Assembly (NCBI GenBank): GCA_946486375.1
Contig: CAMLTW010000003.1
Location: 184,668 to 248,667, forward strand
From: an uncultured Rikenellaceae bacterium
Lineage (GTDB): Bacteria; Bacteroidota; Bacteroidia; Bacteroidales; Rikenellaceae
Direction of reading: 5' to 3'
DNA: 64,000 nucleotides
In this document: piece by piece, positions 9,939-55,040 of the stretch
Position numbering within the stretch: the stretch's first letter is position 1
How the letters are laid out: each line of letters opens with the position of its first letter
Notes under the pieces: model-generated
Databases searched by the model: none
What the model saw: the letters and a program-made list of their open reading frames with translations, nothing else
What the model was told of the DNA's origin: nothing
Translations under genes and position numbers: made by a program

Positions 9939-10008
9939 TCCCCGGTTTTCGGATGTCTGTTCCCGTCCTCTCGGAAAATTGCATATCTTTACACCCAAAA
10001 TGGGGATC

Positions 10009-10821
10009 ATGGATTTTAAAGACAAAGTGGCCGTCATTACGGGAGCGTCTTCCGGCATCGGACTGGCGCTGGCGCGGGAGTTCGCCGCGCAGGGAGCGGC
10101 TGTGGTGCTGGGCGCCCGCACGGAGGATAAACTCCGGGAAGTGGCAAAGGAGATCGAAAGCCGCGGGGGACGGGCCGTTTTTGCGGCGACCGACGTGACG
10201 AAAGAGGCGGACTGCGAATGCCTGATCGAAACCGGAGTGAAAGCGTTCGGGAAAATCGACATTCTGATTTGCAATGCCGGAATTTCGATGCGCGCTTTGT
10301 TCGACGACGTGGATTTGAACGTGCTGCATCGGCTGATGGACGTGAATTTCTGGGGAACGGTGAACTGCGTGAAGTACGCCCTTCCCCATATCCGGCAAAA
10401 CCGGGGCTCCATCGTAGGGGTTTCCTCGGTGGCCGGCATCCACGGACTGCCCGGTCGCACGGGTTATTCCGCCTCCAAATATGCCATGCAGGGCTTTCTG
10501 GACACCGTCCGGGTGGAAAACCTGAAAAAGGGGGTGCATGTCATGGTGGCCGCGCCCGGATTCACCGCTTCCAACGTCCGGTTTTCGGCGCTGACCGCGG
10601 ACGGCACTCCGCAGGGAGGAACACCGCGCGACGAAGGGAAAATGATGACCGCGGAAGAAGTGGCCCGTCGGATCGTGCGGGGAATCGCGCGGCGTAAACG
10701 CACGCTTCTGATGGAATTTCAGGGAAGGGCGACTTCGTTTATCAAGAAATTCTCCCCCGCCCTGCTCGATCGCCTTTTTTACAGCCACATGGCCAAAGAG
10801 GAAAATTCGCCGCTGAAATAG
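10009..10821 (+). CDS. Short-chain dehydrogenase/reductase (SDR)
   Basis: About 270 residues of the classical SDR family with an NAD(P)-binding TGASSGIG motif near residue 11, NAG (as ICNAG) and the catalytic Ser-Tyr-Lys set, with Ser in VSSVAG and YSASK for Tyr and Lys. The C-terminus has a basic tail (RRKRTLLMEFQGRATSFIKKF) reminiscent of membrane-associated SDRs that act on lipid-type substrates. The substrate is unknown. A TATCTTTA box at 9984-9991 implies a very short leader; I chose the ATG at 10009, but the in-frame ATG at 10000 is equally possible. Confidence 0.85.
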   Translation: MDFKDKVAVITGASSGIGLALAREFAAQGAAVVLGARTEDKLREVAKEIESRGGRAVFAATDVTKEADCECLIETGVKAFGKIDILICNAGISMRALFDDVDLNVLHRLMDVNFWGTVNCVKYALPHIRQNRGSIVGVSSVAGIHGLPGRTGYSASKYAMQGFLDTVRVENLKKGVHVMVAAPGFTASNVRFSALTADGTPQGGTPRDEGKMMTAEEVARRIVRGIARRKRTLLMEFQGRATSFIKKFSPALLDRLFYSHMAKEENSPLK

Positions 10822-10843
10822 CCGACCGCTTTACGGAACGCTC

Positions 10844-11188
10844 ATGGAACCGGGAAAGCACGTCTGTCTGCCGTACGTTTCCGCCTCGCTTTTCATGGGG
10901 CCGGCGATCGGCTTCTGTTATGCGGAACGGATCCCCGATTTCGACATCGGATTCAGCGAAACCTTCATCGCTTTCGAATGTTGGATGCTGATTGTCGTTC
11001 TGTGGGGAGTCGAAACCGGAGTTTTGCGGATGCTGCGGGCCTGCATCGAAAAACCACGACGGTTCCGGCAGGCCGCTTTCGGGCTGACGATAGGATACGT
11101 GCTGATCGTGTGGGGATGTTGCCATTACCTGTGTGTCGTGGAGGCGATGCGGGATTGGAATCGGTGGATGAGCGGAGACGTGGGATAA
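10844..11188 (+). CDS. Small membrane protein, unknown
   Basis: 114 residues with two or three hydrophobic segments (around residues 12-26, 42-58 and 80-98) and several Cys residues, including CCHYLC near the end. I recognise no family. It starts 22 bases after the dehydrogenase stop, on the same strand, and so may be co-transcribed with it. A long open frame on the opposite strand here looks like a shadow of this gene and the next. That the gene is real rests on start position, membrane-like composition and context only. Confidence 0.55.
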   Translation: MEPGKHVCLPYVSASLFMGPAIGFCYAERIPDFDIGFSETFIAFECWMLIVVLWGVETGVLRMLRACIEKPRRFRQAAFGLTIGYVLIVWGCCHYLCVVEAMRDWNRWMSGDVG

Positions 11189-11230
11189 AATGCTTCCCGC
11201 TCCGACCCGAAACGGTTTTCCGCTTTCCCG

Positions 11231-11261
11231 TTTGCATCCTTGGATTAAAATGCTATCTTTG
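11231..11261 (+). promoter_or_regulatory. Bacteroidota-type promoter for the rhamnose-type operon
   Basis: TTTG at 11231-11234, a 19-base spacer, and TATCTTTG at 11254-11261, a full consensus match. The start of the mutarotase gene follows 23 bases later. Confidence 0.8.
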
Positions 11262-11284
11262 CTTGAAACCATTGCTGATAACTG

Positions 11285-11689
11285 ATGATGACACTGAAGG
11301 AAAAATACGATTCTCCGGAAGACGGCTATTACGTGGAACGTCTTCCCTACGAAACCAAGAGGGTTTGTCTGGCCGTCGATCTTCAGGACGACCCGGAACT
11401 GATCGCCAAGTACAAACATTACCACAGTCCCGCCGCTTTCTGGAAAGAAATCGGCGAAGGCATCCGGAAGGCGGGAATTTCGGTGATGGACATCTATCGG
11501 GTGGATACCCGGCTTTTCATGATATGCGAAGTTCCGGTCGACACGCCTTTCGACGAGGCGTGGAATGCCCAGAGCCGCTATGAACGGCAGGACGAATGGA
11601 ACGAATTCATGCGCGGATGTCAGAAGGCGCTTCCGGGGCACAAGCTCGAATGGGTCAAGATGGAGCGCGTGTTCGAATTGCCGAAGTAA
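11285..11689 (+). CDS. L-rhamnose mutarotase family protein
   Basis: 134 residues of the RhaM (DUF718) family, dimeric alpha/beta-barrel enzymes that interconvert the anomers of L-rhamnose. The motif YKHYHSPAAFWKEI carries the family's His (YKxxH) and the aromatic pair; VMDIYRVDTRLFMICE matches the central strand. The initial 25 residues extend beyond the minimal RhaM core. It is the first gene behind a consensus promoter, followed 55 bases later by a RhaT-type transporter, which supports a sugar role. Related proteins can act on L-fucose, so the sugar is not certain. Confidence 0.8.
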   Translation: MMTLKEKYDSPEDGYYVERLPYETKRVCLAVDLQDDPELIAKYKHYHSPAAFWKEIGEGIRKAGISVMDIYRVDTRLFMICEVPVDTPFDEAWNAQSRYERQDEWNEFMRGCQKALPGHKLEWVKMERVFELPK

Positions 11690-11744
11690 CCGGATCGGGT
11701 GACGGAAACGTCCTGTTTTAAACTTCATTATTAATTTTCATACG

Positions 11745-12785
11745 ATGGCACCGAATCCTTTGTTGGGGCTGTTGCTGATCGGCATCGGCGCTTTTTCCGC
11801 GGGAAGTTTCGCCGTTCCTTTCGGACGGGTCAGAAATTGGAACTGGGAAAATTACTGGCTGGTAGCGGGCGTGGCTTCCTTTATTCTGGCTCCGCTGGCC
11901 GCCTGTTTGCTTCTCGCTCCGGATTTTCTCCGGGTTTATGCCGACATTCCGGCGACCCGATTGTGGTGGGTTTTCTTTTTGGGCGCTCTTTATGGAATCG
12001 GAAGCCTGACCTTCGGGCTTTCCATGCGCTATCTGGGGCTTTCGCTGGGATATGCTTTGGCATTGGGGCTGCAACTGGTAATCGGAACCCTGTTGCCGCC
12101 GCTGTTGGACGGACGGCTCCGGGAAATGATTCTGCATGCGGGCGGCTCGCTATTGCTGTGGGGAATCGGGCTGGCGCTGATCGGAATCGCTTTCACGGCG
12201 TGGGCGGGGTACCTGCGGGACAAAACCGTTTCCACGGCCGTCAAGCAGGAGTCCGTCAAAGACTTCAATTATGTCAAGGGCATCCTGGCCGCTTTGCTCA
12301 CGAGTATCACGGGATCGGCCATGTCGATGGGACTGGAAGCCGGAAACGTCGTGCGCGAAACGGCGATCGCACGGGGCACCGATCCGCTTTTTGCGGAAAA
12401 TCCGCTCCTGTTGCTGGTGCTTTCGGGAACTTTCGTCACTACGCTGGTCTGGTGTCTGTTTCTGGCCGCCCGGAACCGTTCGGTGCATAATTTTTATCGG
12501 AAGGAACGGAATTCCCTGCCGGTCAATTACCTGTTTTCTCTGCTTGCAGGCGCTCTGTGGTATGTGCAGTTCTTTTTCTTCGGCATGGGAAAGAGTAAGA
12601 TGGGGCCTTATACGTTTACCTCGTGGGGCATCCTGATGGCTCTTATCATCGTCTTTGCCACGCTGTGGGGGCTGTATCGACGGGAATGGCAGGGAGCCAC
12701 GAGGGGAATTTACGTGAGGATGTTCATCGGTCTGCTCATCATTACCGCTTCGGCGGTGGTGATCGGGATCAGCGGAGCGGTCTGA
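11745..12785 (+). CDS. rhaT: L-rhamnose/proton symporter RhaT
   Basis: 346 residues with about ten membrane helices. RhaT proteins of the drug/metabolite transporter superfamily import L-rhamnose with protons. Family-like stretches are SFAVPFGRVRNWNWENYWL at the N-terminus, ALYGIGSLTFGLSMRYLGLS, and the KMGPYTFTSWGILMALIIV segment near the C-terminus. Length matches E. coli RhaT (344). It sits between the mutarotase and a UroD-family gene (35-base gap), all on one strand. No rhamnose isomerase or kinase is in the window. Confidence 0.9.
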   Translation: MAPNPLLGLLLIGIGAFSAGSFAVPFGRVRNWNWENYWLVAGVASFILAPLAACLLLAPDFLRVYADIPATRLWWVFFLGALYGIGSLTFGLSMRYLGLSLGYALALGLQLVIGTLLPPLLDGRLREMILHAGGSLLLWGIGLALIGIAFTAWAGYLRDKTVSTAVKQESVKDFNYVKGILAALLTSITGSAMSMGLEAGNVVRETAIARGTDPLFAENPLLLLVLSGTFVTTLVWCLFLAARNRSVHNFYRKERNSLPVNYLFSLLAGALWYVQFFFFGMGKSKMGPYTFTSWGILMALIIVFATLWGLYRREWQGATRGIYVRMFIGLLIITASAVVIGISGAV

Positions 12786-26155: not shown

Positions 26156-27142
26156 ATGAAATCGTTATTCCCCTTGTTTCTAAGCTTATTTTTTATAAGC
26201 TCATGTAAAAACGAAACTAAAAAGGAAATATCCTTTTCAGACATTCAATCGGTTGTCGGTGAGAAAATAGCCATACATGAAAGGATATATCCGGATTTTT
26301 TTCATATAAAGTCCGATTATTTAATTGTATCCAGCAGTAAGACCGATACAATGCTATATGTTTACTCTTTACCCCAGCTCGAATTTATTAGCAGTGCAGG
26401 GAGAAAAGGACGAGGGCCTAATGAAATTCCCTTATTCCCGATGTTTTGCAACTCGGAATCGGAAACATCGTTATATATTTGGGGTTATACGCCCTCTTCT
26501 TTAAAAAAGATTTCTTTCGATGAGGCCGGGAAGTTTATATATGAAAGCGATATTCGTTTGAATTTTTACGATGCTTTTAATAACATGTACCTGGAGGATG
26601 ATTTATCTTTGATTTATTATTCGCCGACCGAATTGGTGATCAAAAAATACAGTGTAAAGGATCGGAAAATAACCGATGAAATAATATTCAAATCGGACAA
26701 AACGCTTGGGTCGTATAACCCGGAAATCGGTGTAGCGGATATCGGGCCTTCTCATATCGTTTACGCATTCGAATTCAAAAAACAAATAAACATTTACGAT
26801 AAAAGGAATTTCGAATTGCTTACTGTTCTGACAGATAACGAATCTTATGATCCGCCCGCCCCTTCGGAACCTCAAGGCATCGTAAGACAGTACTACAACA
26901 TTATAGCAGGAGATAAACGTTTTTATGCCTTGTCTCCGAGCAAGAGAAAAGACGAAGATTCAGAGGGAAAAACGTTGATGGAAGTTTTCGATTATAAAGG
27001 AAATCCTGTTGGTAAATACGAATTCGATACGTTTTTAAATCCTTGTATCATCGACGAGAAACGAGGATATGTATATGGTTATTCATCTGTTTACCCGGAT
27101 TCCTTTTTAAAGTATAAGCTTGGCTTCGCCAAAGTAAGTTGA
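26156..27142 (+). CDS. BF3164-like beta-propeller lipoprotein
   Basis: 328 residues. A short signal peptide ends FFISSC, so Cys17 is probably lipidated. The body has repeated strand blocks and the motif GRKGRGPNE at about residues 82-90, matching GRKGKGPRE in the lipoprotein at 55280-56320; both fit the TolB-like six-bladed propeller family of Bacteroidota (BF3164 type). The function is unknown. The gene is visibly AT-richer than its neighbours, with many AAA, ATA and TTT codons, suggesting a different origin or weak expression. No regulator or transporter accompanies it. Confidence 0.75.
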   Translation: MKSLFPLFLSLFFISSCKNETKKEISFSDIQSVVGEKIAIHERIYPDFFHIKSDYLIVSSSKTDTMLYVYSLPQLEFISSAGRKGRGPNEIPLFPMFCNSESETSLYIWGYTPSSLKKISFDEAGKFIYESDIRLNFYDAFNNMYLEDDLSLIYYSPTELVIKKYSVKDRKITDEIIFKSDKTLGSYNPEIGVADIGPSHIVYAFEFKKQINIYDKRNFELLTVLTDNESYDPPAPSEPQGIVRQYYNIIAGDKRFYALSPSKRKDEDSEGKTLMEVFDYKGNPVGKYEFDTFLNPCIIDEKRGYVYGYSSVYPDSFLKYKLGFAKVS

Positions 27143-31496: not shown

Positions 31497-32990
31497 TTAA
31501 TCTTCTGCTGCGACCGCCCAGACCGGCTCGCTTTCCAGATGGGTCGCACTGAGCGCTGTCACCGCATACCGGTAACCGATCCCGTTCTTACCGTCTTCCG
31601 GCATCGGAAGCCGGATGTCATGGCTGCCCGTAACCGCCACGAGGTGCTCCGGGTCCGAAAAATCGGCTTTTTCCCCTTTCCGGAAACGGTAAACCGCATA
31701 ACGCCGGCTCCCTTCTTCCGGCTGCCAGTTCATGCGCACAAACCCTTCTTCCACCCAAACCACGGGAGAACCGGGTGCTTCCGCCGGTACGGGACGGATG
31801 CGGGGATTTTCAGGAGGCAGGGATTTCGACCGGTAAACCGATTCCTTCAGCGCCTTCCGCAATTCCGGATTCAGCAGGGACTTGGCGCTGTACATAATCG
31901 AACCGCCGATGCCGGCCAGCGTCCGGTTCAACCGGATCTGACGGATGATTTCTTCGGGGGTTTTCCATGCCTTCGTTCCGGACGAAGGAGTGATCCGATA
32001 AGAGGCGTGTCCGATATACAGCGGCGTTTTGTAGGCATTTCGGTTCCACCATTCGGCCAATACGCGATAGTCCGCCGCAGGGAAACCGATATGCCAGTAC
32101 AACTGCGGTGCGGCGTAGTCGATCCACCCTTCCCGCTCCCATTTCAGAATGTCGGCGTAAAGATCGTCGTAGTTGGTCTGTCCGGCTCGGGTCGCGGAGC
32201 CTTTCGGGTCCCGATCCTTATTCCGCCATACGCCGAAAGGAGAAATGCCGAATTCCACCCACGGCTTCACCGCTTTGATCGTATCCCGGATTTGCCGGAT
32301 GATCCGATCCACGTTGTCCCGGCGCCAGTCGTCCTTGCTTTTGAAACCGCGGGGATCGCGCCGGAATTCCCTTTCGTCGGGAAATTCCTCTCCGGCCACC
32401 CGGTACGGGTAGAAGTAATCGTCCATATGGACGGCGTCTATGTCGTAATGCCGCACGATGTCGGCCACCACCCGGCAGATGTAATCCCGGTTTTCCCGCA
32501 GGGCCGGATGCAGGTAGGCCGTTTTTCCGTACTGGACGATGCGTTCGGGGTGCCTCTGTAAAAGGTGATCCCTTCCGGCCAAAAATCGATCCGCACTGTC
32601 GAGCCAGACCCGATAGGGGTTGATCCACACATGAACGAGCATTCCCCGCCGGTCGCATTCGTCGATTACGTACTGCAAGGGGTCGAAGGACGGAGCCCTG
32701 CCCTGCTCTCCCGTCAGCCAGTGCGACCACGGCTCATGGGCGGACTGGTAGAAAGCGTCCGCCGTAGGCCTTATCTGGAAAACTACGCAATTCAAATTCG
32801 CATCCGAGGCGGCGTCCAGCAACCCGTTCATTTCGTGTTGCAAAGCTGCAGGATCGGTCGTCTGGGATCGCGGCCAATCGATGTTGGCCACCGTAGCGAT
32901 CCACATGCCCCGCAGTTCCCGTTTCGGCGGATGCGCACAGGAGACCGAAACGATCAGAAGCCCCCAGAATAGCAATCGTATCTTTTTCAT
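31497..32990 (-). CDS. GHL10-type glycosidase lipoprotein with fibronectin-like tail
   Basis: About 497 residues. The signal peptide ends VSVSC with Cys16 or so lipidated; I chose the ATG at 32990 (MKKIRLLFWG). The body matches the glycosyl-hydrolase-like 10 (DUF187, YngK) family: ELRGMWIATVANIDWP, CVVFQIRPTADAFY, VHVWINPYRVW, AVHMDDYFYPY and EFGISPFGVWRN, followed by YAAPQLYWHIG. A fibronectin type III-like module sits at the C-terminus (about 400-495). Family members are thought to cleave glycans, some peptidoglycan-derived, but the substrate here is unknown. A TATTTTTG box lies at 33009-33016. Confidence 0.85.
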   Translation of the reverse strand: MKKIRLLFWGLLIVSVSCAHPPKRELRGMWIATVANIDWPRSQTTDPAALQHEMNGLLDAASDANLNCVVFQIRPTADAFYQSAHEPWSHWLTGEQGRAPSFDPLQYVIDECDRRGMLVHVWINPYRVWLDSADRFLAGRDHLLQRHPERIVQYGKTAYLHPALRENRDYICRVVADIVRHYDIDAVHMDDYFYPYRVAGEEFPDEREFRRDPRGFKSKDDWRRDNVDRIIRQIRDTIKAVKPWVEFGISPFGVWRNKDRDPKGSATRAGQTNYDDLYADILKWEREGWIDYAAPQLYWHIGFPAADYRVLAEWWNRNAYKTPLYIGHASYRITPSSGTKAWKTPEEIIRQIRLNRTLAGIGGSIMYSAKSLLNPELRKALKESVYRSKSLPPENPRIRPVPAEAPGSPVVWVEEGFVRMNWQPEEGSRRYAVYRFRKGEKADFSDPEHLVAVTGSHDIRLPMPEDGKNGIGYRYAVTALSATHLESEPVWAVAAED

Positions 32991-33008
32991 TTTTTCGATG
33001 AAGCGCCG

Positions 33009-33016
33009 CAAAAATA
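33009..33016 (-). promoter_or_regulatory. -7 box (TATTTTTG) for the GHL10-type lipoprotein
   Basis: Minus-strand TATTTTTG 18 bases before the start. No clear -33 box. Confidence 0.5.
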
Positions 33017-33062
33017 GCGAAAGTTTTCCGCGCGGCCGTAGTGATTTAAGATTATATTTTGA

Positions 33063-33070
33063 TAATTTTG
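33063..33070 (+). promoter_or_regulatory. -7 box (TAATTTTG) for the DUF4861 lipoprotein
   Basis: Plus-strand TAATTTTG 27 bases before the ATG, divergent from the GHL10-type promoter. Confidence 0.5.
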
Positions 33071-33097
33071 CATCAGCATTTTAAATCCAATTCAACC

Positions 33098-34375
33098 ATG
33101 AAGAAAGTACTGTGTATGACCGTTTTGCTCGGTTTGATTTCGTGCACCGGGCAAAAAAAGGAACAAACCGTGGTCATTGAAAATCCCACGCAAAGCGCCC
33201 GACCCGATGAAGCCGTCGTGCTGAAGCGCGCTCAGCTCCGTTCCGCCGCCGACAACCTCGTGCCCGCCCTCGTGGATACAGCCGGCAACTATGCGGCTTC
33301 CCAGGTGGACGATCTCGACGGAGACGGCAAGTGGGATGAACTGGCTTTCGTAACCGACCTTGCGCCTGCAGAGAAAGTCACGTTTAAAGTCGTGTGGTTA
33401 GACCCGGCGCAGTATCCGAAGTTCCCCGTCCGCACCAATGTCCGGTACGGAAAGATGACCGTTCCGGGACACGTCGAGGAACAGGCCTCGGACATGCACT
33501 ACAAAGATACGGTTTATTTCATCAATACCGAAGGATACCCCTACCAGATGGACGGAATCGGCTGGGAAAACGACAAGGTCGGCTTCCGGCATTACTACGA
33601 CGGCCGCAACTGCCGCGATTATTTCGGCAAACGGGTTTCCGACATGGTGCTCGACACGGTCGGCCTCCGGGCGGACGGAACGCCGGGAGACACCTATCAT
33701 GTATGGGCCGACTGGGGACGCGATATCCTGAGTGTGAGTACATTCGGACTGGGCGGTCTGGGCGGATTGACGGACGACGGACGTTTCGTCCGGCTGGGAC
33801 GCGTGAACGCCGATCCGGTGGATGTGATAGATTCGACGGGATTCAGGCTCATTACCGAAGGGCCGGTACGGTCGATGTTCGAAGTGGATTTCTACGGCTG
33901 GGCGGTGGACAGCGCCACGAAGGTGAATTTCAAGGAAATCACCACCATCTGGGCCGGGAAATACAACTATGAAAACAAGGTGATCGCTCCGAACCTGCCG
34001 GCCGGTTTGTCGCTGATCACGGGGCTTCCTCGCAACTTCAACGACATGCCGCTGGAAAAGCTGGATTTTGGAAAACATGTGGCGATGACGACGCACGACC
34101 ATCAGTCTTATAACAAGGAATTCGTCATCGGTTTGGCCGTGTTGCTGCCCGACAGCAGCGTGGTCGAAATTTTCGATACGCCGGATGCGGACGCCGACCT
34201 GGCCGGAATGTGGTGTGCGAAACTCCGACTGGACGACAAGGGAGAAGCCTCCTACAAGGCGTTCGGCGCATGGGAACACCAGGATACGATGTTCCGCAAC
34301 CGCGATTATTTCAGGAATTTCATCAAAAGCGAAGGCGAACGGATGGATCATCCGGTTATCGTGACGGTGGAATAA
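33098..34375 (+). CDS. DUF4861 family lipoprotein
   Basis: About 425 residues, signal peptide ending LISC, then a domain of the DUF4861 family. It contains DDLDGDGKWDELAF, like a calcium-binding EF-type turn, and strand-rich blocks such as HVWADWGRDILSVSTFGLGGLGG. DUF4861 lipoproteins often belong to polysaccharide utilization loci for rhamnogalacturonan or ulvan breakdown (family knowledge), but no such locus surrounds it here. It is divergent from the GHL10-type gene, and the pair may be co-regulated. A strong terminator lies 85 bases downstream. Confidence 0.8.
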   Translation: MKKVLCMTVLLGLISCTGQKKEQTVVIENPTQSARPDEAVVLKRAQLRSAADNLVPALVDTAGNYAASQVDDLDGDGKWDELAFVTDLAPAEKVTFKVVWLDPAQYPKFPVRTNVRYGKMTVPGHVEEQASDMHYKDTVYFINTEGYPYQMDGIGWENDKVGFRHYYDGRNCRDYFGKRVSDMVLDTVGLRADGTPGDTYHVWADWGRDILSVSTFGLGGLGGLTDDGRFVRLGRVNADPVDVIDSTGFRLITEGPVRSMFEVDFYGWAVDSATKVNFKEITTIWAGKYNYENKVIAPNLPAGLSLITGLPRNFNDMPLEKLDFGKHVAMTTHDHQSYNKEFVIGLAVLLPDSSVVEIFDTPDADADLAGMWCAKLRLDDKGEASYKAFGAWEHQDTMFRNRDYFRNFIKSEGERMDHPVIVTVE

Positions 34376-34459
34376 TTCTTTAGCGGGTAAAAGGGGGGAG
34401 CTTTTCCCTGCAACGGAGACTGAAAAAGCGTTTCGGAAAATTCCAGTAACCTTAGAGCT

Positions 34460-34497
34460 GTGCAACAAGTTGATAGATAACTTGTTGCACTTTTTTT
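34460..34497 (+). terminator. Strong terminator after the DUF4861 gene
   Basis: Perfect 12-base-pair stem (34460-34471 with 34479-34490), loop of seven, and seven T. The same hairpin is read by the leftward open frame noted in this gap. Confidence 0.85.
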
Positions 34498-34576
34498 GAT
34501 GGGATGAGGTAACGATTAGGCAACGGTACTATTTTACGTTTTGTGCGTCGATATTCACAACCTCAAATAACTGATA

Positions 34577-34584
34577 CAAAGATA
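34577..34584 (-). promoter_or_regulatory. Minus-strand -7 box in the island's left flank
   Basis: TATCTTTG on the minus strand with TTTT 19 bases upstream, a near-consensus promoter pointing away from the GHKL-nuclease gene toward the 34452-34562 open frame. It could drive an antisense or small RNA or a decayed gene. Confidence 0.35.
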
Positions 34585-34640
34585 GTAAAATAATTGAGGA
34601 CAGAAAAAGTAGTTGTAACTTTATATAAAGTAAAAAATAT

Positions 34641-34648
34641 TACTTTTG
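34641..34648 (+). promoter_or_regulatory. -7 box (TACTTTTG) for the GHKL-nuclease gene
   Basis: TACTTTTG 18 bases before the ATG at 34667. The upstream TTTA at 34620-34623 is a poor -33 box. Confidence 0.55.
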
Positions 34649-34666
34649 AGAAATATTTGATTGATT

Positions 34667-36499
34667 ATGAAAGTCAAACTTAATCAAGCGGCTAAAGTCT
34701 TTTTTGGGAATTCTTCTCTCGAAATGGTGTATATTGAAGCTGTGGCAAATGCTTTAGATGCTCATGCCAATAAGATTGATATTGATATAAATGTAAAAGC
34801 ATACAATCAACCACAGTCACTCAGAATTATGATTCACGACAATGGTGTAGGGTTTACTGATGATCGGTTTCAGAAATTCTGCCATCTTTTTGATGTCGAA
34901 GAAGATTCTCATAAAGGATTAGGGCGCCTTGTGTATTTGTGTTATTTTGACAATACAGATGTCTCCAGTAACTATGATGATGTTTATCATCGAGAGTTTA
35001 GATTTTCAGATGCATTTGATAACAAAAATATTGTGACACGTGTGAGCCCCACAGATTCTGGAACAACATTGGTCATGTCTGGTTATACATTATCTAAATT
35101 GAGAGATTATTCCTATTTGCAGCCAAAATACTTAAAAAAGAGAATATTAGAAGAATTTTATCCTAAACTCTACGATATAAAACAACATGCAAAAAAAGTA
35201 GAATTTTCTATTACTGCCACTATTAATGGAGGTACCCATAGTGAACTTTTCTCGACAGACGAAATACCCGCATTGACACAAGTGGAACTGGACTCATCGC
35301 TATCTTTAATTGATAAGATGTATATTCATTATTCTATTCAAAAGTGTGAGAATACTGATTCCTCAGTAGTAACGGCTATCTCTGTAGATAATAGGACACA
35401 AAAGGTGGAGATCATATCAAAGGAGAATATTCCATTGGGATACGAAATGATATTCCTCCTTAATTCTGATTGGTTCGTGGGAAAGGTTGATTTAGCCCGC
35501 CAGAACTTGACTGTATCAAGCTCGGAATTAAAGCAGATAAAAATCTTGTTTCGCAAAAAAGTATCTTCCATTATTGAAATGCATGTGCCTACTATAGCAG
35601 CAATGAATAAACAGACAAGAAATTCATTGCTTGATCGTTTCCCTCATTTGAATGGATATTTTGACAATAGTGAGATAGGATTTAGCGCAAGAAGTGAAGT
35701 ACTCAAGAATGCTCAAGACAAATTTTTTCACGCACAAAGAGAAATTCTGGATGCAACTTCATTGGACGAAGAGCAATACAATAGATCTATCGAATTGTCA
35801 TCAAGAACCCTAACTGAATATATTTTATTTCGACAGTTAATCATAAATAAACTTAAAAATACCGATACTGACGATAAAGAAGCCTATATTCATAATCTCA
35901 TTTGTAAGATGAGACGTCGTTATGAGGGAGAGGATGTATGTGGTGATTTGTATAACAATAACGCATGGATATTCGACGATAAATACATGACTTATAATGT
36001 CACTCTGAGTGACAGGGAAATGACTGAACTGGTTGATGTGATTACGGAAGGGGAAATAGTTGATGAAGACGATGATAGGCCTGATCTTGCATTGATATTT
36101 TCCAATAATCCTGAATCAACCCCTAAAGTTGATGTTGTTATCATTGAATTAAAGAAAAAAGGACTTACGCTTGAAGATAATATGAAAGTTGTAACGCAAC
36201 TTGAAAAAAGAGCGAGAAAGTTAATGCAACACTATGATAATAAAATTCAACGAATATGGTATTATGGTGTCGTTGAATTCAATGAGGATTTGGAGTTGCA
36301 TTTATCTGGAGAGTATCAGGAACTATATTCTACAGGTAAAATATATTATCGAGAAGCAAAAGTGGCAATTCAAAAAGAGCCATTATTGCAAATACCCATA
36401 GGAATTTTCATCATGGATCTTGATTCGTTGGTTAGCGACGCAAATTCGAGAAATTCAATATTTTTAAATTTGATCAAAAGTAAACTTATTAAAGATTGA
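34667..36499 (+). CDS. GHKL ATPase fused to a PD-(D/E)XK-like nuclease domain; candidate defence protein
   Basis: 610 residues, start ATG at 34667 (a TTG lies two codons upstream). The N-terminal GHKL (Hsp90/MutL/MORC-type) ATPase shows Glu24, Asn28 and Asp31 in IEAVANALDAHA, the G1 box HDNGVGF (Asp58, Gly60, Gly62) and the G2 box HKGLGRLVYL (about 82-91). The C-terminus carries RPDLALIF (Asp473) and VVIIELKKKG (Glu494, Lys496), then VVTQLEKRARKL, a pattern of PD-(D/E)XK nucleases. The gene is strikingly AT-rich between G+C-rich core genes and stands alone with its own promoter. It resembles MORC/MutL-like ATPases of bacterial defence or restriction systems, but I cannot name a family. It is not HtpG or MutL by length and arrangement. 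Confidence 0.72.
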   Translation: MKVKLNQAAKVFFGNSSLEMVYIEAVANALDAHANKIDIDINVKAYNQPQSLRIMIHDNGVGFTDDRFQKFCHLFDVEEDSHKGLGRLVYLCYFDNTDVSSNYDDVYHREFRFSDAFDNKNIVTRVSPTDSGTTLVMSGYTLSKLRDYSYLQPKYLKKRILEEFYPKLYDIKQHAKKVEFSITATINGGTHSELFSTDEIPALTQVELDSSLSLIDKMYIHYSIQKCENTDSSVVTAISVDNRTQKVEIISKENIPLGYEMIFLLNSDWFVGKVDLARQNLTVSSSELKQIKILFRKKVSSIIEMHVPTIAAMNKQTRNSLLDRFPHLNGYFDNSEIGFSARSEVLKNAQDKFFHAQREILDATSLDEEQYNRSIELSSRTLTEYILFRQLIINKLKNTDTDDKEAYIHNLICKMRRRYEGEDVCGDLYNNNAWIFDDKYMTYNVTLSDREMTELVDVITEGEIVDEDDDRPDLALIFSNNPESTPKVDVVIIELKKKGLTLEDNMKVVTQLEKRARKLMQHYDNKIQRIWYYGVVEFNEDLELHLSGEYQELYSTGKIYYREAKVAIQKEPLLQIPIGIFIMDLDSLVSDANSRNSIFLNLIKSKLIKD

Positions 36500-36639
36500 G
36501 ATACTATTTGTTATAACTTTCCTTTTGTGAAATATCATTTCTGTTGAAATAAGCCCTGTTCATGGAATGAGTAAACGTGCAAGTCGTATCCTGGCCTGAG
36601 TTTTTAATGCTTACTTTCTTTCGATACCAACCGAGCGCG

Positions 36640-36664
36640 AAAAAAGCGACCTTTGCGGGGTCGC
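36640..36664 (-). terminator. Terminator of the etf/acyl-CoA dehydrogenase operon
   Basis: GCGACC / GGTCGC stem (36646-36651 and 36659-36664), with a T-run on the minus strand. Together with the preceding AT-rich bases to 36500 it fills the 199-base gap beside the island gene. I see no second copy of the left-flank repeats here. Confidence 0.75.
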
Positions 36665-36698
36665 TCTTTCTTTTCGCACTTTCGCTATAAGAAGAAAA

Positions 36699-53945: not shown

Positions 53946-55040
53946 CTATCCTTTTATCTTGTAACAGATGATGACGGGATTGCTGTCTTCTCCGATATCG
54001 TATTTCGCCCGGATGTCCGCATAGATCGGCTCGGAAGCGATTTTGTAGGCATCGACCATCGTCACGAACAAATCGTCTTCCACCAGCCAAACCGGTTCAT
54101 CCAGCGCTCCGTTTTTTCCCGATTCCTCTTCGCTGACGTTCAGATACTGCTTTCCCGTTTCCAAATCGTAAAACAAATTGTGCGGACATTTGTTCATCCA
54201 GAAATAAAGATTCAGGAAACGAGTATTGCGATTGAATCCCAAAAAGTAAAGCTTTTTTTCTCTATCCAACCTTTTCCGAAATTCCGATAAGGATTTGGAT
54301 CCCAATTGGTCCTTTACAAAAACAGAATCGGCCCAATGATCTCCGAAATCAAAACGATATGCCAATTTCGCCCCGTCCTTTTCGATCCTGTATATACAAT
54401 TACTGAAGCTGGGCACGTAATATAAAGTTTCATTCTGCCATGAAAACTTATTATATGAACTCATATCGATCGTTCTTTCCAACCGAACCTTATTTATTTC
54501 CTCCTTCTGTATCCGATGACGCTTGTCCATGACCACTAAAGAATAAGGAGAATCCGAATTCACAAATATGTCACCAAATATGCGGTCGCCGATTATTTCA
54601 AAATCGTAGTAATATTTAGAATATTTTTGAACTTCCGTGCATTTTCCCGTTTCATCGAATTTCAACAGCTTTTTAGATTGCTGGTCATTGATCCAAAGAA
54701 TATTTTCATGAGGGCTAACCGATACATCGCCTACCTGTAAAAATTCGTTTTCCGCCTTTCCGATCGCGTCGATCGTATGAAGGTGTTTTCCCGCTTTATC
54801 GAATACGGTTACGGTTTTGTAGCTGTAAACGAACCAGCAGGAATCATTCCCGGTCAGGCGGGAATACCGGTCGATCACGCAACTATCGTTGTATTCCAAC
54901 GGAACGACCTTCACGATTTCAATCCGGGGCTTTGCTTCGCTTTCCACGTCGATAATGATCCTATTTTCATCCGCCCGTCTTTCTCTGCTTCCACAGGAAG
55001 CAAGCATCCCCAAGAAAATCAATAGCAGTAATTTCTTCAT
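53946..55040 (-). CDS. Six-bladed beta-propeller lipoprotein
   Basis: 364 residues. Signal peptide ending LGMLASC. The body fits the six-bladed beta-propeller lipoproteins of Bacteroidota (DUF5128 type): VTVFDKAGKHLHTIDAIGKA, ILWINDQQSKKLLKFDETGKC and LYYVPSFSNCIYRIEKDG are blade-like repeats. Biochemical function unknown. The gene is AT-richer than the flanking envelope genes. A 9-base inverted repeat lies in its leader (55091-55124). Confidence 0.78.
   Translation of the reverse strand: MKKLLLLIFLGMLASCGSRERRADENRIIIDVESEAKPRIEIVKVVPLEYNDSCVIDRYSRLTGNDSCWFVYSYKTVTVFDKAGKHLHTIDAIGKAENEFLQVGDVSVSPHENILWINDQQSKKLLKFDETGKCTEVQKYSKYYYDFEIIGDRIFGDIFVNSDSPYSLVVMDKRHRIQKEEINKVRLERTIDMSSYNKFSWQNETLYYVPSFSNCIYRIEKDGAKLAYRFDFGDHWADSVFVKDQLGSKSLSEFRKRLDREKKLYFLGFNRNTRFLNLYFWMNKCPHNLFYDLETGKQYLNVSEEESGKNGALDEPVWLVEDDLFVTMVDAYKIASEPIYADIRAKYDIGEDSNPVIICYKIKG

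Follow-up and report, generated by a model that had tools for sequence, protein, structure and literature searches.

A horizontally acquired, AT-rich gene of an uncultured Rikenellaceae bacterium encodes a GHKL ATPase-nuclease that is probably a single-gene anti-phage restriction enzyme of the paraMORC3/VcSduA kind

Proteins composed of a GHKL ATPase domain, an S5 domain and a C-terminal endonuclease of the restriction endonuclease (RE) fold with an E-D-ExK active site were described as paraMORC3 by Iyer et al. in 2008 (PMC2292703). They were found sporadically in Proteobacteria and Bacteroidetes, in restriction-modification (R-M) neighbourhoods or as stand-alone genes, and no functional test was made at that time. 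VcSduA of Vibrio cholerae WASA confers resistance to Drexlerviridae in Escherichia coli and to phage X29 in V. cholerae. Its defence is abolished by the E27A (ATPase) and K557A (nuclease) substitutions, and cultures were protected at all tested multiplicities of infection (MOIs) without signs of abortive infection; the protein was classed as type I-D Shedu (GHKL-Shedu) (PMC12137116). The Shedu SduA proteins of Bacillus cereus and E. coli carry other N-terminal sensor domains, without a GHKL ATPase. For EcSduA, free DNA ends are given as the sensed feature in a passage of a review (PMC12904381). In BREX loci, restriction endonuclease (REase) backup effectors are widespread, Shedu among them, and Schlafen genes are BREX-linked (PMC12839542). 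The main text of this 2026 survey makes no mention of GHKL or MORC.

The gene studied here lies in a 64-kb stretch of DNA from an uncultured Rikenellaceae bacterium, the whole of which is called the window. Its open reading frame encodes 610 amino acids from the ATG at 34667; an alternative in-frame TTG start is located at 34661, two codons upstream. The features of the locus are the following.

34667-36499, + strand: coding sequence for a GHKL/MORC-type ATPase, S5 transducer, helical linker and Shedu-like PD-(D/E)XK nuclease.
34460-34490, + strand: terminator-like hairpin after the upstream gene (13-pair stem followed by seven T), which isolates the ATPase-nuclease gene.
34641-34648, + strand: candidate Bacteroidetes -7 promoter element TACTTTTG, an exact octamer 18 nt upstream of the ATG.
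36645-36665, no strand assigned: downstream terminator-like hairpin, with an A-run on one side and a T-rich tail on the other.

The preliminary description had presented this gene as sharply AT-richer than its neighbours, bordered by terminators and provided with its own promoter box. The first two statements hold. The G+C content of the gene is 34.1% versus 54.5% for the window, and its GC3 is 0.30 versus 0.70 and 0.76 in the flanking genes. Its 1.8-kb stretch has the lowest G+C of the window (0.341 against a mean of 0.545; standard deviation of such stretches, 0.043). Three terminator-like hairpins were counted in the region where 1.0 was expected, one on each side of the gene; the downstream one is possibly common to the ATPase-nuclease gene and the convergent acyl-CoA dehydrogenase gene. 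As for the promoter box, the octamer is exact, but such octamers are common in the window (31 versus ~20 expected), so that TACTTTTG is not statistically distinctive, and the -33 element is degenerate. The element is therefore a plausible promoter only. Two other AT-richer genes, at 26156-27142 (+ strand, 328 amino acids) and 53946-55040 (- strand, 364 amino acids), both with lipoprotein-like starts, explain the remaining drops in G+C content along the window.

No tRNA gene was found in the 64-kb window and no convincing direct repeats flank the gene, so no attachment site is marked. The acyl-CoA dehydrogenase gene on the right and its etf genes are conserved in the family (53/61 genomes); the left block (31497-34375) is kept in a few genera. 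These two blocks were next to each other in no relative examined and are ~36 kb apart in one of them (G025). Consequently, the exact insertion cannot be bounded and there is no clean empty site; the junction at the window locus is lineage-specific.

The protein was divided as follows from the motifs, the structure matches and the AlphaFold model.

34667-35596, + strand: GHKL ATPase and S5 domain, residues 1-310 (MORC/MutL/GyrB/Hsp90 fold; structure match and Pfam).
34736-34750, + strand: N box, E24-N28 (catalytic Glu, Mg-binding Asn), invariant in 69/69 sequences and in the 26-member broad alignment.
34838-34855, + strand: G1 box, D58-N-G-x-G-F63, with D58, G60 and G62 invariant.
34913-34927, + strand: G2 box, K83-G-L-G-R87 (ATP lid), with G84 and G86 invariant in 69/69 sequences.
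35498-35500, + strand: R278, in or just past the S5 domain.
35519-35857, + strand: long helical linker, residues 285-397 (AlphaFold helices 285-306, 308-324, 342-361 and 368-397).
35864-36496, + strand: PD-(D/E)XK nuclease domain, residues 400-610, with E405, D473, E494, K496 and Q511 (model, structure matches and invariance).

Both enzymatic halves had been proposed in the preliminary description, an ATPase with N, G1 and G2 boxes and a C-terminal RPD ... ELK nuclease motif followed by a Gln in one 610-residue chain, and both were recovered. For the N-terminal half, Pfam matches were obtained past the cut-offs with HATPase_c_3 (E 8.6e-7) and HATPase_c (E 4.2e-6); GHKL ATPase families were the only Pfam families found in the protein. 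The AlphaFold model, made with 69 aligned sequences, had a mean pLDDT of 84 and, for the whole protein, a pTM of 0.63, the relative orientation of the domains being uncertain. The best PDB match of residues 1-310 was MORC3 (5ix2_B, VIA-align Z 19.3, 278 residues aligned, rmsd 3.8), followed by MORC4 and MORC2, then by Hsp90, MutL and GyrB (Z 16-17; ~16.5 for MutL and GyrB). Since these residues match the ATPase module of the eukaryotic MORC2, MORC3 and MORC4 proteins (Z 17.3-19.3), the GHKL and S5 domains are both there. Unlike the window protein, to which they are 11-13% identical, eukaryotic MORCs have no nuclease domain. R278 is a candidate ATP-sensing basic residue, and the modelled helical linker may be a coupling arm or the wall of a DNA chamber.

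Searches of the PDB by sequence and of PADLOC with the window protein returned nothing. Several candidate assignments were rejected. BbrUII/HgiDII (NCBIfam NF050001) shares a GHKL-like N-terminal motif over residues 16-69 (E 1.8e-5), which covers the generic N box and G1 only, and scored 23.5 bits versus a cut-off of 550. NCBIfam matches to MutL, anti-sigma and histidine-kinase families were limited to the GHKL motif region and far under their cut-offs. Tiamat (TmtA), the sole PADLOC match (E 0.003), covered a single short GHKL segment in two plasmid homologs and was discarded as generic. The BFVD matches were generic GHKL proteins (topoisomerases, RIIA and Hsp90).

In the C-terminal half, the motif reads E405 ... 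R-P-D473 ... E494-L-K496 ... Q511. Residues 366-610 folded alone with AlphaFold gave a PD-(D/E)XK fold (pLDDT 80.8, pTM 0.77), as the preliminary description had expected of a structure prediction. The two best PDB matches were Shedu nucleases, that of B. cereus (8ti9_C, VIA-align Z 10.4, 152 residues aligned, 3.7 A) and DNA-bound E. coli SduA (8ps5_A, Z 9.3, 168 residues aligned, 4.5 A). Below them came 2p14 (Z 7.8) and the rest at Z <=6.4; BspD6I, FokI and McrBC were the next structure matches after Shedu. Foldseek alone returned no match with E < 0.024 for this domain, so the link to Shedu rests on the slower aligner (VIA-align) and on profile comparisons. The SduA_C Pfam family gave no match to the window protein at E 10, nor to nine family members at E 1. 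With hhalign, the broad-family profile aligned with the Shedu profile over the nuclease domains (probability 80.6, E 1.3e-5) and with a GHKL and SduA_C fusion over most of its length (probability 97.7, E 2.2e-12); the nuclease profile of the window branch itself did not match the Shedu profile. Through this profile comparison, a different Bacteroidota protein of 587 amino acids (L083:123-1883), in which a GHKL ATPase is fused to SduA_C past the Pfam cut-off, connects the window family to Shedu. The sequence link to the B. cereus and E. coli SduA proteins thus passes through intermediate relatives only. The modelled structure makes membership of the window protein in Shedu likely, although its sequence signature was not found. 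A PDB sequence search with the nuclease alignment retrieved only an alginate lyase (E > 1), which was rejected.

In the 69 aligned sequences, E24, N28, D58, G60, G62, G84 and G86 on the ATPase side and E405, D473, E494, K496 and Q511 on the nuclease side were invariant; R278 and H409 were each kept in 68. The broad set, whose 26 members are highly diverse and, outside the window branch, share 15-19% identity with the window protein, showed the same Glu, Asn, Asp and Gly and the same E-D-ExK residues in all of its sequences. R278 was invariant there as well, and the Gln corresponding to Q511 was lost in two members. Judged from these alignments, selection maintains both active sites.

The protein could not be attached to any named system in the preliminary description. 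This has to be revised, the architecture being that of paraMORC3 (PMC2292703) and VcSduA having the same design and anti-phage activity (PMC12137116). With paraMORC3 the window protein shares the GHKL motifs (past the Pfam cut-off), the S5 domain, the RE-fold E-D-ExK site, the sporadic distribution and an occurrence of the family next to R-M genes or as stand-alone genes. With VcSduA it shares the domain order (GHKL, middle clamp, PD-(D/E)XK), the single-gene organization and homologs on mobile elements. By position and motif, E27 and K557 of VcSduA correspond to the invariant E24 and K496; two VcSduA-like members of the broad family (L060 and L061) carry E27/K558 and E27/K556. The VcSduA-like relatives are ~660-680 amino acids long versus ~610-630 in the window branch, with ~15-23% identity, and the SduA_C match is absent from the window branch, unlike the signature of type I-D Shedu. 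The window protein is classed here as a paraMORC3 protein that probably works like VcSduA: every testable paraMORC3 feature was found in it, sequence grouping with the 2008 members aside.

The distribution of the gene is patchy, and the universal presence expected of a housekeeping gene, which the preliminary description had set against a defence role, was not observed. Besides the source, convincing relatives were present in three of 60 related genomes (G046, G029 and G010, the last with the N-terminal part only). A class-wide sample of 394 other genomes contained one full-length member (G390) and a short C-terminal match (G280). Most weak matches in the genomes cover only residues ~10-120 and are other GHKL proteins, which were not counted as members. 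A very restricted two-pattern scan of one genome per species yielded 103 loci, the best 80 of which were kept; these share 34-60% identity, in nearly all cases along the whole protein. The loci belong to Bacteroidota, Proteobacteria, Spirochaetes, Acidobacteria, Verrucomicrobia, Lentisphaerae and Fibrobacterota. Members also occur on 12 viral contigs, and the phage family phrog_6203 matches the window protein (E 3.8e-14). In the tree, the window sequence stands apart from the Alistipes copy (L122) and the PG1894_159 copy (L125), beside a branch of Flavobacteriaceae, Marinilabiliaceae and other copies. The gene tree thus ignores the species, which means that the gene has moved horizontally, and the ATPase-nuclease gene of the window is horizontally acquired. 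Its branch is compact (~610-630 amino acids); a second, larger branch of 660-700-amino acid proteins is spread over plasmids (55 records). Two members appear frameshifted or broken, one split in two frames (L121:10001-11887) and one without an intact open reading frame (L148:10001-11845), which suggests recurrent loss or assembly error.

The preliminary description had recognized in the combination of an Hsp90/MORC-type ATPase with a nuclease a pattern of defence proteins, and the surroundings of the homologs, which include BREX3, type I R-M and prophage contexts, agree with it. A BREX type 3 operon contained the gene, with brxC on one side and pglXI on the other, in 11 of the best 80 of the 103 loci (L143, L144, L150, L152, L154, L155, L158, L160, L164, L165 and L167, around 10001-11890), in Proteobacteria and Verrucomicrobia. 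In L143, for example, brxF, brxC, pglXI, the BrxH helicase gene and pglZ each gave a nearly full-length PADLOC profile match. A Schlafen AlbA_2 gene is near in the same operon in nine of these 11 loci, usually just after brxC. Nine of the same 80 loci were in a type I R-M operon, defined by at least two of hsdM, hsdS and hsdR within 7 kb, where neighbouring reading frames often abut or share a few bases. A relative with 53% identity, on an Elizabethkingia prophage contig (L168:4548-9842), is oriented divergently from the adjacent genes for the two terminase subunits, small and large, and for the portal protein, and other members adjoin terminase or tail genes. Plasmid members are near Abi, CBASS, Shedu, type I R-M, SIR2-HerA with XamI, AbiE, RnlAB and DNA methylases. 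On a Vibrio fluvialis IncC plasmid (L061:6601-9992), a classical Shedu gene adjoins a gene of the GHKL-nuclease kind, with a 4-nt overlap, and the two follow a type I R-M operon. On a viral contig (L169:4459-8298), an N6/N4 DNA methylase gene and a gene for a 369-amino acid protein without Pfam match immediately precede a 44% identical relative, an arrangement that is possibly a type II R-M pair.

The neighbourhoods were compared with a control, the BREX3 loci being left out. At E 1e-15, the nearest-neighbour proteins matched 221 (93 proteins) and 357 (94 proteins) PADLOC models, versus 13 for 86 proteins taken at arbitrary places in 20 Bacteroidota genomes; the models are redundant, so that these counts are not numbers of systems. 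The cases span more phyla than the controls, and the contrast is still large.

These locations raise the question of whether the protein is an accessory effector, a nuclease that serves BREX3 or type I R-M as an auxiliary or backup and is steered by the methylation or translocation of these systems; in that case the window copy would be an orphan or would work with an unlinked system. The insertions, which separate brxC from pglXI or one hsd gene from another and often have overlapping or nearly touching frames, fit such a role, as do the widespread REase backups of BREX loci and the link of Shedu to BREX (PMC12839542). However, some three quarters of the 80 loci, most members of the window branch among them, have neither operon, and VcSduA protects alone (PMC12137116). 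This explanation is very unlikely. At the window locus, no recognized defence gene was found directly beside the gene, which is stand-alone, like most members of its own branch.

The best explanation for this horizontally acquired gene, and probably the right one, is a restriction enzyme of the GHKL-nuclease (paraMORC3/VcSduA-like) kind that acts against phages as a single-gene system. ATP binding would join two subunits via the N-terminal GHKL domains (E24, N28 and the G1 and G2 boxes). The S5 domain and the helical arms would close round the invading DNA, like the MORC, MutL and GyrB clamps. This ATP-gated closure would position and license the Shedu-like PD-(D/E)XK domain, presumably metal-dependent (E405, D473, E494, K496 and Q511). 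The nuclease domain would then cut DNA, that of the phage, and the host would survive. The sensed feature may be DNA ends or topology. The predicted folds, the invariant catalytic sets, the patchiness, the transfer and the defence contexts support a role in defence; the 15-23% identity to the VcSduA-like branch, the lack of a Pfam SduA_C match, the mismatch between the nuclease profile of the window branch and that of Shedu, the uncertain domain orientation in the model, and the lack of a defence neighbour and of a clean empty site at the window locus stand against it.

The same nuclease might instead degrade the host DNA when a phage is sensed, the cell dying by abortive infection. In other systems, nucleases with this fold are effectors of this type. 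Beside the family, however, no recurrent partner gene resembles an antitoxin, and VcSduA protected cultures over all MOIs tested (PMC12137116), which makes this outcome very unlikely. A housekeeping role in DNA repair, in which a relative of MutL or topoisomerases would use its nuclease to process host DNA carrying damage or mismatches, is highly improbable: MutL and GyrB are among the matches of the ATPase module, and Iyer et al. speculated on non-R-M functions for some stand-alone paraMORC3 genes (PMC2292703), but the gene is missing from nearly all relatives, its tree is incongruent with the species, its prophage, BREX3 and type I R-M locations are repeated, and its composition is AT-rich and foreign.

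For the anti-phage restriction enzyme proposed here, the function is not the undescribed one that the preliminary description had announced: paraMORC3 and the anti-phage activity of VcSduA have been published (PMC2292703; PMC12137116), and only the window branch is undescribed. What is new, as far as found, is a compact branch missed by Pfam SduA_C and by PADLOC and repeatedly embedded in BREX3 and type I R-M operons. It is conceivable, if rather doubtful, that this branch forms a separate nuclease module, an ATP-gated DNA clamp that follows a sensing rule of its own, acting alone or recruited as a DNA-cutting effector into BREX3 (between brxC and pglXI) and type I R-M. If so, the compact branch would supply BREX3 with an ATP-gated restriction nuclease, and its recurrence within BREX3 and type I R-M operons allows a direct test of whether BREX3 uses a dedicated nuclease of this sort. 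An experimental demonstration of the GHKL-nuclease defence design was found for VcSduA only, and a large sister branch is missed by Pfam SduA_C and PADLOC-DB 2.0. In joining a MORC-like clamp to a nuclease, the family provides a parallel in bacteria to the MORC ATPases of eukaryotes.
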